From Stenocarpella maydis (taxonomy: Eukaryota > Ascomycota > Sordariomycetes > Diaporthales > Diaporthaceae), in assembly GCA_002270565.1 (NCBI GenBank), contig NQMI01000013.1:231121-295120 (forward strand): DNA of 64,000 bases, read 5' to 3'. Of the stretch, positions 32,542 to 63,341 are shown piece by piece. The notes below the pieces were generated by a model that was given only the letters and a program-made list of their open reading frames with translations, was not told the DNA's origin and made no database searches. The position numbers were made by a program, and so were the translations under genes. Within the stretch, counting starts at the first letter, position 1. Every line of letters starts with the position of its first letter.

Positions 32542-33425
32542 NTTATATAAAAATAAATAATAAAATATATAAATTAGAAAAGAATTAAGGGATTAATTCT
32601 TAAGGAGGGAGATAAGGTCTATTTCTTTCACTAAAACATTAAGACTAAGCAACCTAGCAAAAAGCTTAACTGTAAGAAAATCAGCCCCTTTAAAATTTTA
32701 AGAAAGCTTTTATATACTAACTACAAACTCTTACTACCTAAAGGAATGAAATAATACCCAGTCTTCCATATCTCACTCTTAGAACTAGCACTTAAGAATG
32801 TAGAACTTAAAATAAAGATTAAAATACTTAATGAGTATAATAAGGAATATAAAGTAGAGGATATTATAAACTTAAAGTAGTACTAAGGGATAATAGAATA
32901 CCTTATTAAGTAAAAAGGCTATAACTCTAGTAAAAACACATGGGAACCAGCCTAAAACTTAACCTACTATTATAATGAACTTAAAAAGTACCATGCGCAG
33001 ACTATCATAAAATAGTCCTAGAAACTAGGAATACAGCCTAAAAACCCTATATATAATGAATTATAACAAACTAATATTATAATGAAACCATATAATAAAC
33101 CCTAGCCTTTATAGCTAAAATAAGGGAAATAACTAATAAGAGACTAATTACAATAGGAATAACTAGAAGCCAGCAACTAGTTAACCCCTTAGAAAAGCAT
33201 ACTAATACTAGTTGCCCTATCCCACTAACAACCTAAATACCAGTTATACTTAAAACCTATCTAAATGAATACCAGTATCTATACCCTATACCCTAGTAAA
33301 TACTAGTTATAAGAAAATAAGATTAAAATGATACAGTATAACCAGTAGACTAAAAACAGCTAGGAACTAGGATCAGTTAGATAAATAATTAAATAAGTTC
33401 CATTCCTAGTAACCAGAATCAGGCA

Positions 33426-34091
33426 CTAAGATAAGCTACCTATAGGCACATTTCCTTCACTACCCTCATTACTAATACCCACAAATTCAGACCAACTAGT
33501 ACTATCATTCATTAAGGAACTCCAATTAAAAACTCCCACTTTACCCTCAGAATACAGCTATACCTCTTGTACTATTATCCTACTAGCCTCTTTAGTAGAA
33601 CTTCAGTAAGCTACCTTAGCGGACTACTTAGTAATCCGCCTTTACTCAGTATTAGCTTCCTCCTTTTCTATATAATTCAACTCATCTAAATTTAATAAAC
33701 CCTAATAAATAGCCTGAGACATCCTCTTACGCCATATATGCTTCTGCTTGCACAAATAAAGGAGCTTCTCCTCCAACTCTTCAATCTTATCCTCCAGTTT
33801 TTAGTGCTAAGCTAAGATATATAAGAGGTCCTTAGAGTTATTCAGTTCCAAGACATTATACTTCAACTGCTACTACCGAATGTACTTAACATAGCAACTA
33901 GAGGCCTTCTCTAAGACCTTATAGCTCTTAATGCTCTGTACCTTATAAGAAGAATAAGGTTGTATGGTAATAGCGTTCTGCAGAATGGTAAATAATAAGG
34001 AATTATATTACTCAACCTTTCTAGAATAATAAGATAATTTAAAAACCTAGGAATCCTTAACTCTAGATAATATAACGGATTACGAAGGTAT
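33426..34091 (-). pseudogene. Antisense accessory frame of the chromovirus, copy 1
   Basis: The frame is exactly 666 nt (222 codons including the terminal TAG), the same as in the full-length element at 61885-62550, with no indel. The start codon is ATA here where copy 2 keeps ATG, as expected from RIP. About a dozen internal stops are present; most can be explained by C-to-T or G-to-A changes of Gln, Trp or Arg codons. Several positions that are stops in copy 2 are still Gln or Trp here (for example before KHIW). Readable parts are QPYSSYK, SYKVLEKASS, a heptad coiled coil KLEDKIEELEEKLLYL, then LLNLDELNYIEKEEAN and a Ser-rich acidic tail. Function is unknown. Confidence 0.7.
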
Positions 34092-34165: not shown

Positions 34166-34629
34166 TATTATAAGCTAATATACATTAGCGGCTGACTACT
34201 GCAGAAGATAACCCCGCAGGACAGGAAATGGCTCCCAAAAAGGTTGTCCCGCCTAATCCAATTAATAATGCCACCTTATCAGGGTTAGGGTCTAGCTTGC
34301 AACACTTAATTGCAAGCTATATAAGCCCGCTTAAGGGATGAAGTATCAAGCCTCATATAATAACTTAATGGCTTGATATGTAAGCCTGCAAGCCACTAAA
34401 GAGTTGGAACATATATATATAATATGATTATTACTACGGTAGATAGCTTTTATAGAACAGACTCTTCAGTCATTAATCTAAGTATTCAATCCCAGCATTG
34501 GATAGCCTCACAGCTAGTGATCATTATTAGTTAACAGTATTGCTTAACTACCGCCTAATAATGTATTCCAAACATAAACCCTTGATCTTTCGGGTCTAAA
34601 TACGCTCGGAAAACCCTCTGATCATTACA
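34166..34629 (+). repeat. LTR of chromovirus copy 1 (464 bp)
   Basis: Aligns end to end with the LTRs at 55471-55933 and 62624-63085. It begins TATTATAAGC where the better-preserved LTR has TGTTATGAGC, and ends TGATCATTACA. It carries AGGGTTAGGGTCT and a perfect 10-bp inverted repeat at 34293-34302 / 34310-34319. The first 130 bases keep more GC than the rest. Confidence 0.88.
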
Positions 34630-35617
34630 TCTAACCCCCAGAGACTCCCAGGGAGGTCCGGATAATCCGCGGAGGCAAGAGGCACGTCGGGCGGGGCCCC
34701 CCTTGGGCGGAACCGGGGTTAGAAGGGATGCCTCCTCTGTGAAAGAATGCGTTTGACCCAAAATCCGCAGACCGCCTAGGTAAGTAAGGTTTGGCCTCGC
34801 TTCACGCATGTCTGGCGAGTAGTGCAGGCGAGTGGAGTGGAGGGACGGACTTATGGGAGCGGGCAAGGTTCTGCGAATTTGCCGCGCCGGGGTTTATGGC
34901 CTATCCGATCGTCCACCACAATTGCAGGATGACCTAGGCAGGGGATGTGAGAGGGTTTAGGTGCACTGCCCCATAGCTAGACCACTGAAGAAGAGTGCAC
35001 TCGGAGACTGCTTGTCAGGCACAGCGAGATGGGGCAACTTGTAGCAGGCACGCTGCCGAACAGTACGCGTGTTGGCCCTCTATGTCGTGGGAGTAACAGC
35101 TTGTCAACTCACTCGGTACCATTTCTCCCATGCCTAGGTATGTTTTAAACCCATCACGACAGAGCTCACCACGGTAAGGTGCCCACGACGGAACGGACCA
35201 AGCGCAACAATGAGTCTGTAACAGGTCCATCTGTGGGGTTCCACGCCAACCACCATGGCCATTGTGTCGAGCCTCTGTCTGCAGCGAGACAGCCTCTTCG
35301 ATCTTCAATTTCGCGGTCTCCTTCCCTCGAGCATCCAAAGGAGGGCAGGACTACTTTTCCAGCTCGTCTGGTTTCCAAGCAAGCCCTGACAGACCTGGGC
35401 TGCCCGTCCATGGAAGTGCTGAGGATACTAATTAATATGTCTATAGGTGGTGTGCAAACAAGGCACATGAAGATTCCGAGACGGCAGCTGAGCCCTGGTC
35501 CTGGCGTGCTCCACCCAGCCGCCAAGCATCTGCACCGCACTGCGCTGCACACCCGCCACCCACGGTCGCACCCTCACGCCACCACCACGGCGCGACCCCC
35601 CGCGTGCATCTCCAGCG
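34630..35617. other. Spacer between transposon and FAD oxidoreductase
   Basis: GC-rich unique-looking sequence begins abruptly after the LTR. No motif-bearing frame is seen. The last few hundred bases should hold the promoter of the FAD oxidoreductase. Confidence 0.5.
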
Positions 35618-55470: not shown

Positions 55471-55933
55471 TGTTATGAGCCAACACGCATTAGCGGCTGA
55501 CTACCGCAGAAGACAACCCCGCAGGACGGGAAACGGCTCCCGAAAAGGTCGTCCCGCCTGATCCAATCAGTAACGCCACCTTATCAGGGTTAGGGTCTGG
55601 CTTATAACGCTTAATTGCAAGCCATACAAGCCCGCTTGAAGGATGAAGTATCAAGCCTCGTGCAATGGCTCAATAGCTCGGTATATAAGCCTGCAAGCCA
55701 CTAAAGAGTTAAAACATATATATAAATATAGTTATCACTATAATAGATAGTTTTCATAGAACAGACTCTTTAGTTATTAATTTAAGTATTTAATCCCAGT
55801 ATTAAATAGCCTTACAGCTAGTAATTACTGTTAGTTAATAATATTATTTAATTATTGCCTAATAATATATTCTAAATATAAACCCTTAATCTTTTAGGTT
55901 TAAATATGCTTAGAAAACCCTCTAATTATTACA
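55471..55933 (+). repeat. 5' LTR of chromovirus copy 2
   Basis: Starts TGTTATGAGCC and ends ATTACA, the TG...CA ends expected for an LTR. The first 170 bases are barely mutated (CATTAGCGGCTGACTACCG), whereas the remainder is RIP-mutated, a sharp internal change. The LTR hairpin is broken in its left arm here by two G/C-to-A/T changes. Confidence 0.9.
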
Positions 55934-56309
55934 TTTTAATAACTCTTGTTTATATATCGCTATATAGACTTTAAGTAATATTATATATGGAACCCTTTAT
56001 GATATTAGACTTTGGAATAATTACCCCTACCCGTAACCTTCTCTATAAGCTAGATGAACTCGCTAATAATGAGACTATAAACCCCTATATCCAAGAGCTA
56101 GTTAATAAGGTTAAATAACTATGCCTCCTTATGGAAGAACAAACTTAATATAATATAAAAGTTAAACAGCTTTAATAAGAAATTACTACCCTTTAGGCAG
56201 GGGCCAACATTATTAATACCTTAATTTAAATAAAGGAATATATTAAGCTTAATACTCCGGCCCCTTATGATAGAACTACTAGATAACTTTAGGAATACCT
56301 AATGCAGGT

Positions 56310-58059: not shown

Positions 58060-60060
58060 GTTAAGCTAGGAATCTATATATACTTAGCACTTATTAATAG
58101 TGGAGCATAAGAGAATTTTATATCCTTAAGGATAATAAATGGATACTACCTATTATAGCATAGGAAAAGGGAACCATATAAACTCAATATAGTGGATAGA
58201 ACTAAAGTATCTTATAGCAATAGAATTATTAATATAGAGACTAATCCTCTCCTAGTTCAGATTTATAACCACATGGAATTACTATCATTTAATATTACTA
58301 AGATAGTAAATTATTAGTTAATCTTAAGAATACCTTAGTTAAGAAAGAATAACCCCCAAATTAATTAAACCACTAGCTAGATCTTTTAGGATAATGCCAT
58401 TCCCTAGAAGAAGGTTGCAATTAATGGTAAGGGAAGGAGTCATATTACTAAGGATAGCGAACAGGTAATGCACTTAAATAGACCCATGGATACCTCTAGG
58501 AGCAAGCAGAGGGCCCAACTCCAGAAAAATAGAGAAGGATTAAACCACTTAAGCGCCTTACAGAAGGACTAAAGCTAATTAGGAGATTACTACTCTAGCA
58601 CAATCAATCAGCATATAATATAGGAAACATAATAATACCTCCTTTACCTAAGGGAAGGAAAGAAAGGAGACCAGACTAATAGACTAGCATAAGTACTAAA
58701 AGACTATTATAAATTTAAAAAAGTATTCCAGGAATAACTCAACACTATATTACTATAACACATATAATAAGACTACAAAATACTATTAAAACCCGAAATA
58801 GCACCTCAATTCAAGCCCATCTACAGACTCAACAAGGAACAACTTAAAGCACTTAGGGAATACCTTAATTAAAACCTCCAGAAGGAATTTATTAGGCTAT
58901 TATAATTACTAGCAGGATACCCAATCCTCTTTATACCAAAGAAAAATAGCAAGCTACAACTTTACATTAACTATCAATAACTAAACAACATTACAATCAA
59001 AAACTAATACCCTCTCCCACTTATTAAAGAACTATAAGATTAACTTAGGGGAGCAAAATAGTTTATAGCACTCAACTTAAAGTATAAATACAACCTTATC
59101 TAAATAAAAGAAGGAGAAGAATGGAAGATAGCATTTAGAATATACTATAAATATTATAAAATGACGGCTATATCTTTCAGATTAATTAATATACCTGCAT
59201 CATTCTAGGAAATAATTAACCAAGTCCTAAGCAAATACCTTAACATCTTTATTATTACTTACTTAGATAACATTCTTATCTTCTCAGAAAACCTTAATAA
59301 TCACAAGGAATATATCAAAAAGGTTCTTTAAAAACTTTAGGATGCCAATCTCCTAATAGAACTAGAAAAATGCAACTAGCACACACAAAAAGTTAACTAC
59401 CTCAGATACACAATTAAACCAAGAAAAATCAAGATATAAGAAGAAAAAGTTAAAGTAATTAAAGAATAGCTAACCCCTATAAATATTAAGGATATTAGAG
59501 CATTCCTCAAATATACCAACTTCTATCAACAATTCATTACACAATATAGTAATATCACAAAACTATTAACAGACCTTATTAAAAAGAATCATACCTTCAA
59601 GGAGATAGATACTAAACAACAAGCTTTCTAAACACTTAAAGATAAAGTTACGGAAGACCCCATACTTAAGGAAGCAGACCCAGAGAAGGAATTCAAGGTT
59701 TATATAGATACCTTGGATAATGCTATAGGCAGAGAACTTACTTAAAAAGATAACCAAAAAAGGATATATATCATTATAAACTTTAGCAAAAAGTTTAACA
59801 AACTAGAAACCCGCTATATTATACCAGATAAGGAATTTATAGTAATAGTATATATATTCTAGGAATAGCAATATTACCTTATAGGAGCTAAAAAGCAGAT
59901 CAAACTTTATATAGATTATAAGAATCTTATAACCTTTATAATAACTAAAACTCTCAACAAACAATAAGTTAGATATATAGAGTTCTTATTATAATTTAAT
60001 ATTAAGATCATCCATATAGATAGAGTTAAAAACGCAAGGACAGATATACCTAGTTAAAGA
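58060..60060 (+). pseudogene. Remnant pol: protease, reverse transcriptase, RNase H
   Basis: The protease active site reads LINSGA at about 58091-58108 where DSGA is expected (Asp to Asn). Reverse transcriptase is recognisable from PIYRLNKEQLKALREYL at about 58818, AGYPILFIPKKNSKLQL, and the catalytic YLDNILIFS at about 59259-59285 (one Asp of YVDD is now Asn). RNase H follows with FKVYIDTLDNAIG and LETRYIIPDKEF. Stops interrupt all of it. Confidence 0.85.
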
Positions 60061-60219
60061 TCCAACTATTAGGATAAGGATTTACCTACGGAATGGATAG
60101 TGTTTAAAACCTAAGAAGATAAAAGCCTTATTCTTAACTATAAACTTAATGCTATAATTAAAGTTAACTTTCAAACTAAAAAAACCCCTACCAATCTAAA
60201 GAAATAAAATAAGTTAATT

Positions 60220-61000
60220 ATGGAAATACATAAAGCACTAGCATACAGCTACTAAGTTATTCTAGCAATAATTAAAAGAATTAAGCAGAATTACCAGATC
60301 CCTAACCTTAAGAAGAAGGTTCAAGATATTATTAGCAGATGTAACTTATATAATAAAAACAAGGCCTCTAAACACAAACCATATGGATTATTAAAACCCC
60401 TACTAATACTTACATCTATATAGTCATCCATTAGCCTGGGCTTTATCATTAAACTACCACTCTCATGAGAACCCTTAACTAGAGTATTATATAATGGTAT
60501 TCTAGTAGTAGTTTATAAACTAAGCAAGTATATATACTTTATACTATATAAGGAAGCTAGCACTATAGAAGAACTCGCATACACATTCTTGCAAATCATT
60601 ATAAGCAATTATGGAATGCTACATAAAATTATCTTAGATAGAAATAAGCTCTTTATATTAAACTTTTAGAAGTTACTAATAAAGCAACTCAGAGTAAGGC
60701 ATAAGCTCTTAACAATAGTATATCTATAAATAAATAGATAAATAAAATAACTCAACCAGATTATGGAATAATACCTCCAATACTATATCAACCAATTATA
60801 GGATAATTGGGTTAAACTGCTACCATTAGTACAGTTTGCCTACAATAGTGCAACTACTAGCACAACTAAGCAGTCACCTTTCTTTACACTCTATAGATAC
60901 AAACCTTAGGCATACTACGAATTACTGCTAGATAATACCTCAGCGGAATTAGCAGAATAAAAAGCAATACGAATCAGATAAATCCAGAAGGATATCTAAG
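60220..61000 (+). pseudogene. Remnant integrase
   Basis: HKALAY, then a Cys pair region ISRCNLYNK (second Cys now Tyr) form the mutated zinc-binding N terminus. The core keeps LGFIIKLPLS, GILVVVYKLSKYIYF, SNYGMLHKIILDRN and the C-terminal WVKLLPLVQFAYNSATTSTT, a highly typical Gypsy integrase segment. Multiple stops are present. Confidence 0.85.
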
Positions 61001-61297: not shown

Positions 61298-61460
61298 TAA
61301 GAAATATAAAGTGGAAAACATTATAGATTTAAGGTAGCATTAAGGAATAATAGAATACCTTATTAAATAGAAAGGCTATAATTCCAGCAAAAATATATAG
61401 GAACCGGCCTAAAACTTAACCTATTATTATAATAAACTTGCAAAATACTATATGCGGACC
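61298..61460 (+). pseudogene. Remnant chromodomain
   Basis: Read around stops: VENIIDLR, GIIEYLIK, stop, KGYNSSKN, stop, EPA. Intact chromodomains have the form YLVKWKGY...TWEP, so the stops fall on Trp codons as RIP would produce. In chromoviruses this module at the integrase C terminus directs insertion to particular chromatin. Confidence 0.85.
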
Positions 61461-61884
61461 ATTATAAAATAGTTCTAGAAACTAGGAATGCAGCCTGAAA
61501 ACCCTATATATAATAAGTTATAATAAACTAATGTTATAATGAAACTATATAATGAACCCTGGACTTTATGGCTAAAATAAGGAAAATAATTAATAAGAGA
61601 TTAGTTATAATGGGAATAATTAAAAGCTAGCAACCAGTTAAAACCTTAAAAGAAAATCATACTAATACTAGTTATCTTATTTAAACTATAACCTGAATAC
61701 TAGTTACACCCAAAAACTACCTAAATGAATACTAGTAATCCATACCCCGCACCCTAGTAAATACTAGTTACAGAAAAACAAGATTAGAATAATATAGTAT
61801 AACTAGTAGACTAAAGACAGCTAGAACCCAGGACTAGTCAGATAACAAGCAAATAAGTTCCATTCCCAGTAATAAAATCAGGCA

Positions 61885-62550
61885 CTAAGACGAGCTACCC
61901 ATAGGCGCATTTCCTTCACCCCCCTTACTACTAGTACTTATAAATCCAGACCAACTGGTACTATCACCCATTAAGGAACTCCAATTAAAAACTCCTACTT
62001 CACCCTTAGAATGCAGTCACGCCTCCTGTGCCACCATCCCACTAGCCTCCTTAGTAGAATTTCGGCAGACTACCTTAGCGGATTGCTTAGCGATTTACCT
62101 CTACTTAGCATTAGCTTCTTCCTTTTCCATACAATCTAACTTATCTAAATTTAATAAACCCTAATGAATGGCCTGGGATATCTACTTATACTATATATGC
62201 TTTTATTTACGCAAATAAAGGAGCTTTTCCTCTAACTCTTTAATTTTATCCTTTAGTTTTTAGTGTTAAGCTAAGATATATAAAAGGTCTTTAGAGTTAT
62301 TTAGTTCCAGAACATTATATCTTAACCGCTACTACTAGATACACTTAGTATAATAACTAGAGGCCTTTTCTAAGACCTTATAGCTTTTAATACCCTATGC
62401 CTTATAAGAAGAATAAGGTTGTATAGTAATAATATTCTATAGGATAGTAAATAATAAGGAATTATATTACTTAACCTTCTGGGAATAATGAGATGATTTA
62501 GAAATTTAGGAATCCTTAATTCCGGATAATATAATAAATTAGGAAGGCAT
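61885..62550 (-). pseudogene. Antisense accessory frame of the chromovirus, copy 2
   Basis: From an ATG at 62550 to a TAG at 61885, exactly 222 codons, identical in length to copy 1 and in the same frame throughout. It has about 16 internal stops, most of which fit mutated Gln, Trp or Arg codons; several are Gln or Trp in copy 1. Shared readable blocks are PYSSYK, KSYKVLEKASS, YNVLELNNSKDLLYILA, a coiled coil KLKDKIKELEEKLLYL, LLNLDKLDCMEKEEAN, KEASGMVAQEA and GVFNWSSLM, ending in a Ser/Gly tail. The start lies 73 bp inside the 3' LTR edge, so a promoter acting on the opposite strand, possibly in the LTR, would be needed. I recall fungal hypothetical proteins with a coiled coil followed by LDELD near Gypsy elements, but cannot name a family. 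Confidence 0.7.
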
Positions 62551-62623
62551 AAATAAGGGCATTAATGAATGGAAATAACTTATGGAATACTTTTAAGGAT
62601 AAAAGAAGTAAGGAGGGAGATAA

Positions 62624-63085
62624 TATTATAAACCTATGCATATTAGCGGCTAACTACTATAGAAGACAACCCTATAGGTTGGGGAATAAACCCTAAAAAG
62701 AGCGCCTTACCTAATCCAATTAGTAACACACCCTTATCAGGGTTAGGGTCTGGCTTGCAACGCTTAATTGCAAGCCATGCGAGCTAGCTTAAAGGATGAA
62801 GTATTGAGCCCTATATATGGGCTCAATGGCTTAACGTGCAAGCTAGCGAGCTACTGAAGAGTTGGAGCATATATATGGATATGGTTATTACCATAAGTAG
62901 ATAGTTTTTATAGAATAGACTCTTTAGTTGTTAATCTAAGTATTTAATCCCAACATTGGATAGCCTTATAGCTAGTGATTATTACTATTTAATGATATTG
63001 CTCAACAACCTCCTAATAATATATTCCGAATATAAATCCTTGATCTTTTAGGCTTACATACTTAGAAACCCCTTTGATCATTATA
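62624..63085 (+). repeat. 3' LTR of chromovirus copy 2
   Basis: Starts TATTATAAACC (RIP-altered TGTTATGAGCC) and ends TGATCATTATA. A purine-rich tract AAGGAGGGAGATAA lies directly before it, the expected primer site for plus-strand DNA. The hairpin is perfect here: TGGCTTGCAA at 62751-62760 pairs with 62768-62777. Confidence 0.9.
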
Positions 63086-63341
63086 CCTAGCAGCTGAATG
63101 CAAGGATCCAGTATCTTTATAAATAGGAGCAGATATAATATAAGAAGATAATCCGTGTAGTCCATTAGGATATCAATAATATAGAGGAGCTAGAGCGTAT
63201 GGAGAAGGAGGAGGCTGAAGTAGAGTGGGTGTGAATTGCTATATAATCCGCTAAGGCTGTATGGAAGAGTTTTATAGAAGAGGCTAGTAGAATGGTAGCG
63301 TAAGAGGCTTAGCTATGTTTTAAGGGTGAGGTTAGTATTTT
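63086..63341 (+). pseudogene. Inverted fragment of the chromovirus antisense frame (third copy)
   Basis: Reading the plus strand gives QYLYK, stop, EQI, then IEELERMEKEEAEVEW, SAKAV and EEASRMVA, KGEVSIF. This follows the antisense frames of the other two copies residue by residue (LLYLCKQKHI, LDELNYIEKEEANTE, SAKV, KEASRIIV, GKVGVF). Because it is on the plus strand, its parent element lay in the opposite orientation. It is diverged more than the two main copies differ from each other. It is cut on the left by the full-length element and on the right by another LTR at 63342. Confidence 0.72.

Follow-up and report, generated by a model that had tools for sequence, protein, structure and literature searches.

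Antisense frames in retrotransposons may be genes or accidents of composition, and if genes, what would their products do? This question is raised by a 64,000-nt stretch of the Stenocarpella maydis genome (contig NQMI01000013.1, positions 231,121 to 295,120; hereafter the window), which holds two copies of an element that is, judged by its plus-strand domains, a fungal Ty3/Gypsy chromovirus. An earlier note on this DNA had placed a 222-codon frame in both copies, opposite gag-pol and between the chromodomain and the 3′ long terminal repeat (LTR), and we located it there on the minus strand, at 33426-34091 (copy 1) and 61885-62550 (copy 2). Here we argue from sequence comparison that the frame was a real gene of the brtn kind, now killed by repeat-induced point mutation (RIP), and we report that the half of it that would bind DNA changes in step with a block of about 100 bp in the LTR.

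The antisense frame and its copies

The two copies of the 666-nt frame align without a gap and end in the same TAG, as the earlier note had it; 543 of 666 positions are identical, and the differences consist of 119 transitions and 4 transversions. Copy 2 does begin with ATG and copy 1 with ATA. Ten internal stops are common to both copies and nine occur in a single copy, where the partner codon is Gln (4), Trp (1) or Arg (4), in agreement with the claim that several would be Gln or Trp in the other copy. The host genome (53.5 Mb, 312 contigs) was searched for further copies and contained at least 150 matching places (150 scored of 319 candidates, all of them matches), with identities from 100% to 41%. 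Seventy copies, chosen by the frame, were used for the codon tests. An SH3/chromodomain match lies beyond the frame's stop on the opposite strand in 66 of these 70 loci, on the same strand in 1, and is missing in 3. Seen from the element, the frame adjoins 47 of the best 60 of 150 listed pol-end places, and the other 13 have no neighbor among the 150 scored frame matches.

The claimed length proved to be six codons too long at its start. Codon 4 of the 222-codon frame is a stop in 65 of the 70 copies, codon 1 is never ATG or ATA in subfamily 1 (it is ACT in 9 of 13), codon 7 is ATA (65) or ATG (4) in 69 of 70 copies, ATA being the RIP product of ATG, and the homologues described below begin at codon 7 with MS-x-R/K-V/I. 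For these reasons we moved the start to codon 7. The RIP-broken gene thus probably occupies 61885..62532 in copy 2 and 33426..34073 in copy 1 (both minus strand, 215 codons plus stop), with a product of about 215 aa, the same length as the homologue P0003. In copy 2 about 90 bp separate the probable start codon from the 3′ LTR. The leader between them (62533-62623) is identical in purine/pyrimidine class in subfamilies 6 and 1 and, counted with codons 1-6, is variable at 18 of 87 columns among six related subfamilies. Right before the 3′ LTR of copy 2 lies the polypurine tract (62610..62620, plus strand), which on the gene's strand is a CT-rich run upstream of the start, presumably like those of fungal promoters.

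Because RIP produces transitions, transversions were counted for the codon tests. Among the 552 closest pairs (< 1% transversions, in effect one subfamily), transversions amounted to 0.50, 0.25 and 0.41% at the first, second and third codon positions; more distant pairs gave 3.2, 2.3 and 7.6% (640 pairs) and 15.7, 12.1 and 23.8% (880 pairs), the pairs in these counts not being independent. There is a third-position excess of transversions between subfamilies and none among near-identical copies. Fixed purine/pyrimidine differences, counted column by column, were distributed over the three positions as 30/24/50 (p = 0.005), 6/4/16 (p = 0.009), 2/4/18 (p = 7 × 10−5), 37/28/58 (p = 0.003), 33/26/54 (p = 0.003) and 5/6/10 (p = 0.36), so that the excess has p ≤ 0.009 in five of six group comparisons. 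In six related subfamilies (29 copies), 70 of the frame's 638 columns vary, spread over the codon positions as 15/17/38 (p = 0.0009). On the LTR side 168 of 495 columns vary, and in the first 300 nt past the stop 94 of 296, neither flank showing periodicity. It is the second half of the frame that produces the third-position excess (11/11/28, p = 0.003); the first half gives 4/6/10 (p = 0.25). For the chromodomain and pol the same test returned p = 0.09, which is no firm sense-strand positive control.

The stops point the same way when all 70 copies are taken together. In the gene's frame, 12 of 726 internal stops have no RIP parent codon in their column. The two remaining antisense frames give 108 of 914 and 345 of 1954, and the three frames of the sense strand 131 of 933, 42 of 871 and 174 of 1415. 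In subfamily 7 alone the gene's frame has 20 of 105 such stops and does less well than one of the sense frames, which has 5 of 96. The earlier note had proposed a check for selection on the frame, and a codon-position constraint is present that is lacking in the flanks. With the unbroken homologues, this constraint supports the suggestion of a real accessory protein in the ancestor, and we conclude from these comparisons that the frame was a gene.

Relatives and the brtn kind

A query made from copy 1 with its stops masked as X matched three proteins, among them P0003, which is 215 aa long and unbroken. At E ≤ 0.001, 32 homologues were found with P0003 and 168 with a profile of 28 members (120 of them listed). 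Most are unnamed metagenome predictions; named sources include Cytospora mali, Gaeumannomyces avenae, Colletotrichum, Diaporthe, Rostrohypoxylon, Pseudogymnoascus, Hymenoscyphus, Cadophora and Botrytis cinerea. The intact homologous frames that the earlier note suggested looking for thus exist as unbroken proteins, albeit proteins without readable genomic surroundings. The Botrytis homologue P0042 is named 'Putative BRTN' in UniRef and was matched with E 1.7 × 10−36 by a profile built without it, which places the window gene, on sequence homology, in the already named brtn kind of the Boty elements of Botrytis. Six of the unbroken homologues (P0003, P0006, P0007, P0010, P0013 and P0016) are mosaics whose N- and C-terminal halves are of unlike relatedness.

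Other searches returned little. By tblastn, no relative was found in viral contigs (45 pattern stretches) or in prokaryote genome contigs (589). Neither the window frames nor P0003-P0005 nor ten distant members matched any Pfam family above its cut-off; DUF465 was matched by six of 28 scanned members (best E 9.3 × 10−6), and P0023 carries DUF465 in the database. Copy 1 gave a single match of E 0.42 in the PDB sequence search, and the PDB profile search gave HP1242 (E 0.0012 over profile positions 71-125) plus seven weaker matches.

Joint exchange of the N-terminal half and an LTR block

The N-terminal (N) half, which would bind DNA, falls into seven divergent types, each with its own LTR block of about 100 bp beside a TATA-like run. 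This distal block, of type alpha in the window, lies between AGGGTTAGGGT and the TATA-like run at 62750..62858 in the 3′ LTR of copy 2, where its co-variation with the gene makes it the proposed target, at 55597..55705 in the 5′ LTR of copy 2 and at 34292..34400 in the 3′ LTR of copy 1 (all plus strand). The telomere-like AGGGTTAGGGT (62739-62749, 55586-55596 and 34281-34291) stands at the edge of this variable block, and in 79 of 86 copies both it (≤ 2 mismatches) and the anchor on the TATA side were located.

Subfamilies 6 and 1 make the exchange visible. Their purine/pyrimidine distance is 0.00 over about 1350 pol-side columns and 0.00-0.05 in most of the LTR, but rises to 0.14-0.39 within the N half and to 0.30 within a single LTR block (flanks of 7-8 copies each). 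Among the pairs formed by 78 copies, 456 agree in N type and differ in the proximal LTR; the distal blocks are alike in 416 of these, all 40 exceptions involving one copy. Of 949 pairs that differ in N type and have similar proximal LTRs, 3 are alike in the distal block. The adjusted Rand index between N type and LTR block is 0.97 for the distal block and 0.09-0.10 for the proximal one, a permutation over 11 haplotypes gave p = 0.00055 and p = 1.0, respectively, and N types predicted from the distal block were right in 3 of 3 cases. The N half and the distal block therefore change in step, although the proximal LTR between them exchanges freely.

That the whole LTR follows the N half was considered and not borne out, since the distal block alone does. 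Since the proximal block is not linked to N type, CGG-N10-CCG in that block was dropped as a candidate binding site. Two side observations concern the distal block. The single copy L042 combines an N half of type alpha with a distal block that is strongly AT-rich and unrelated to the alpha block. In L067 and L053 the block holds two similar palindromes in tandem, and in each copy the best inverted repeat, with 14-nt arms separated by 5 nt, exceeds all 60 shuffles.

Architecture of the protein

The N half contains six cysteine columns, at 62317..62415 in copy 2 (minus strand, codons 46-78 of the 222-codon frame, spacers 2-7-9-2-7) and, as TGY/TAY columns, at 33858..33956 in copy 1 (minus strand). 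Over the 70 copies, 419 of the 420 cells hold either the Cys codon TGY or its RIP product TAY. The six cysteines are kept in 108 of 126 listed homologues. The Zn2Cys6 pattern is C-x2-C-x6-C-x5-12-C-x2-C-x6-8-C; its exact spacing occurs in 78 of the 126, and the window type departs from it with x7 in place of x6 in the first half of the cluster. The Pfam family PF00172 (Zn_clus) had no match in the window frames and reached only sub-threshold scores elsewhere (2 members of 28 and 4 of 10, none with E below 0.06; the highest score was 13.9 bits, where the cut-off is 21).

The fold of the cluster is predicted from models. In second-look structural alignments, all four entries matched by P0003 were Zn2Cys6 domains (HAP1 three times, PUT3), as were 8 of the 10 matched by the Botrytis BRTN, at low Z and including 1cld with 33 of 33 residues at 1.8 Å. 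Behind the cluster, the AlphaFold2 model of P0003 has a long helix, probably a coiled coil (residues 79-123), which by alignment falls at 62164..62298 of copy 2 (minus strand). The tail is acidic in 87 of 88 homologues. In its cluster, its coiled coil and its tail, the modeled protein resembles a Zn2Cys6 factor.

The element in the window

Plus-strand Pfam matches in the two copies comprise the reverse transcriptase, RNase H, the integrase zinc-binding domain and the chromodomain, with a weak gag match under the cut-off. In copy 2, the reverse transcriptase (58933..59415, PF00078, E 1.7 × 10−14), RNase H and the integrase zinc-binding domain (60202..60366, PF17921, E 6.6 × 10−6) are above the Pfam cut-offs, and the chromodomain at the end of pol (61305..61451, PF00385, E 4 × 10−4) scores 20.7 bits against a curated cut-off of 25.1. 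The chromodomain of copy 1 (32848..32994, PF00385) is above it with 33.8 bits. LTR alignment placed the 5′ and 3′ LTRs of copy 2 at 55471..55960 and 62624..63108 and the 3′ LTR of copy 1 at 34166..34650 (plus strand, ends approximate); for copy 1, the pol end and the 3′ LTR beginning at 34166 were seen, and this alignment found no 5′ LTR. Between the two LTRs of copy 2, 480 aligned bases contain 93 transitions and 23 transversions, a share of transversions that is high for one insertion and may reflect a recombinant element or LTRs from different insertions. The stretch from the chromodomain to the antisense gene (~61452-61884) is far apart in subfamilies 6 and 7 (0.17-0.35), despite N halves and a deeper part of pol that are nearly identical.

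What the gene may have done

We consider it probable that the gene encoded, antisense, an element-specific regulator that bound a block in the promoter of its own LTR. Its product would be a small DNA-binding protein with a basic N-terminus, a Zn2Cys6-like cluster, a coiled coil for dimerization and an acidic tail carrying aromatic and aliphatic residues. Antisense expression, zinc and DNA binding and dimerization are what we infer from these features, as is the sign of regulation. The protein most likely bound the U3 block of about 100 bp between the TTAGGG-type repeat and the TATA-like run, and once bound it may have raised or protected transcription from its own LTR. The DNA-binding half and the block would have been swapped between elements as a matched pair, and such exchange would leave each element type served by its own regulator. 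Mere linkage would tie the proximal block, which is nearer, at least as tightly to the N half, and binding of the distal block by the protein would explain the pairing. The earlier note had suggested a regulator or a chromatin/integration partner; the first is strengthened by the predicted fold and the co-variation with the promoter block, and the second is now less favored. As to its effect, activation or anti-silencing seems rather likelier than repression, because the tail is acidic and the block lies beside the TATA-like run.

Other accounts of the frame differ in what they leave unexplained. We give practically no credence to an open frame that arose by chance from base composition and RIP and encoded no protein: a one-step RIP parent does exist for 73-89% of the stops in the other five frames, compared with 92% here, but codon periodicity, low variation and cysteine conservation speak against it, and unbroken homologues, some in named fungi, refute it. 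It is quite improbable that the distal block is a part of the antisense gene's own promoter that moves together with the coding half for that reason and is no binding site of the protein. The block does lie upstream on the gene's strand, yet the leader and the proximal block, which are nearer the gene, do not change along with the N half between subfamilies 6 and 1, and in the full set of copies N type and proximal block do not go together. Recombination near the LTR could also have linked the two as a by-product, with a real protein acting elsewhere, as an integration or chromatin partner. The N half adjoins the LTR and the homologues are mosaic, as this would have it, but the proximal stretch lies between N half and distal block and is nevertheless unlinked to N type by both the Rand index and the permutation, and we regard this account as rather unlikely.

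Two variants keep the regulator and change what it does. One would have the protein bind the LTR block as a copy-number or superinfection-immunity factor, in matched repressor/operator cassettes like those of related temperate phages. Matched exchange is what phage immunity regions look like, and here the DNA-binding half and the block are exchanged between near-identical elements, with several types in one genome; the acidic tail in 87 of 88 homologues is more like an activation tail, and we hold repression to be possible and not favored. The other would have the protein clear silent chromatin or methylation from its own element, with protein-block pairs diversifying under host silencing. The RIP-type decay in the host and the precedent of VANDAL and VANC in Arabidopsis, in the available text of PMC5735166 and PMC10398659, lend this some weight. 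In this genome, however, the block is one short promoter stretch and not a long repeat array, and VANC is named as a functional analogue only, so we keep anti-silencing of this type as a tentative alternative. The element-specific regulator of its own LTR remains our preferred reading, and the matched exchange makes it directly testable by predicting which protein binds which stretch of about 100 bp. If it holds, genes of this kind would regulate LTR retrotransposons in co-evolution with their own promoters, a situation of which we know no earlier case.

Comparison with known systems

The gene kind itself is known. Zhao et al. 2011 (Virology 417:248) reportedly described brtn in the Boty-like retrotransposons of Botrytis cinerea. 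In the available text of PMC4227169, brtn is an antisense gene in a Ty3/Gypsy element with a chromodomain in pol, as here, where the protein is homologous as well, and PMC5987419 mentions a Monilinia transcript similar to a truncated Pol and BRTN. The window gene differs in its divergent sequence, and the accounts of brtn, as far as their text was available, make no mention of type-specific DNA-binding halves or of a link to an LTR block. The accessible portions of the open-access literature likewise yielded no DNA-binding fold for BRTN and no link between BRTN and an LTR block, the original brtn paper lying outside this search; the terms antisense, brtn and zinc do not occur in the accessible part of a review of fungal LTR retrotransposons (PMC3248453). 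The DNA-binding nature and the matched regulator/LTR cassette thus look new.

The predicted protein is like the Zn2Cys6 (GAL4-type) factors LEU3, PHO7, HAP1, PUT3 and GAL4 in the six-Cys spacing of 78 of the 126 listed homologues, the predicted fold of the cluster and the coiled coil behind it, and unlike them in that Zn_clus stays below its cut-off, the basic first loop is mostly missing and the gene sits inside a retrotransposon. HBZ of human T-cell leukemia virus type 1 (HTLV-1), whose product has a coiled coil, is a retroviral antisense gene and is likened here by description; excerpts of PMC11963269 and PMC7264820 give its product as nuclear and place an HTLV antisense promoter inside the 3′ LTR. 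The antisense genes associated with Retand, Grande and TRP28 occupy the same place and orientation in the element, with DNA binding predicted for TRP28 and nuclear localization for Grande in those excerpts. This likeness is one of position; Retand is a non-chromovirus, and the text available gives no LTR-block link.

The nearest parallel to the proposed regulator/LTR cassette is provided by VANDAL and VANC in Arabidopsis, where, in the available text of PMC5735166 and PMC10398659, a transposon-encoded protein co-evolves with its DNA motif and acts in an element-specific manner. The transposon there is of another kind and, as far as is known, the protein is another, and binding is experimentally shown there and proposed from sequence here. 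On balance we lean towards a self-recognition cassette in fungal chromoviruses, in which an antisense zinc-cluster regulator and the operator block of its own LTR are swapped as a unit and several mutually blind types may share a genome. By analogy, and with similar reserve, we suggest that such a cassette would be to retrotransposons what immunity regions are to phages, or would parallel VANC and VANDAL.
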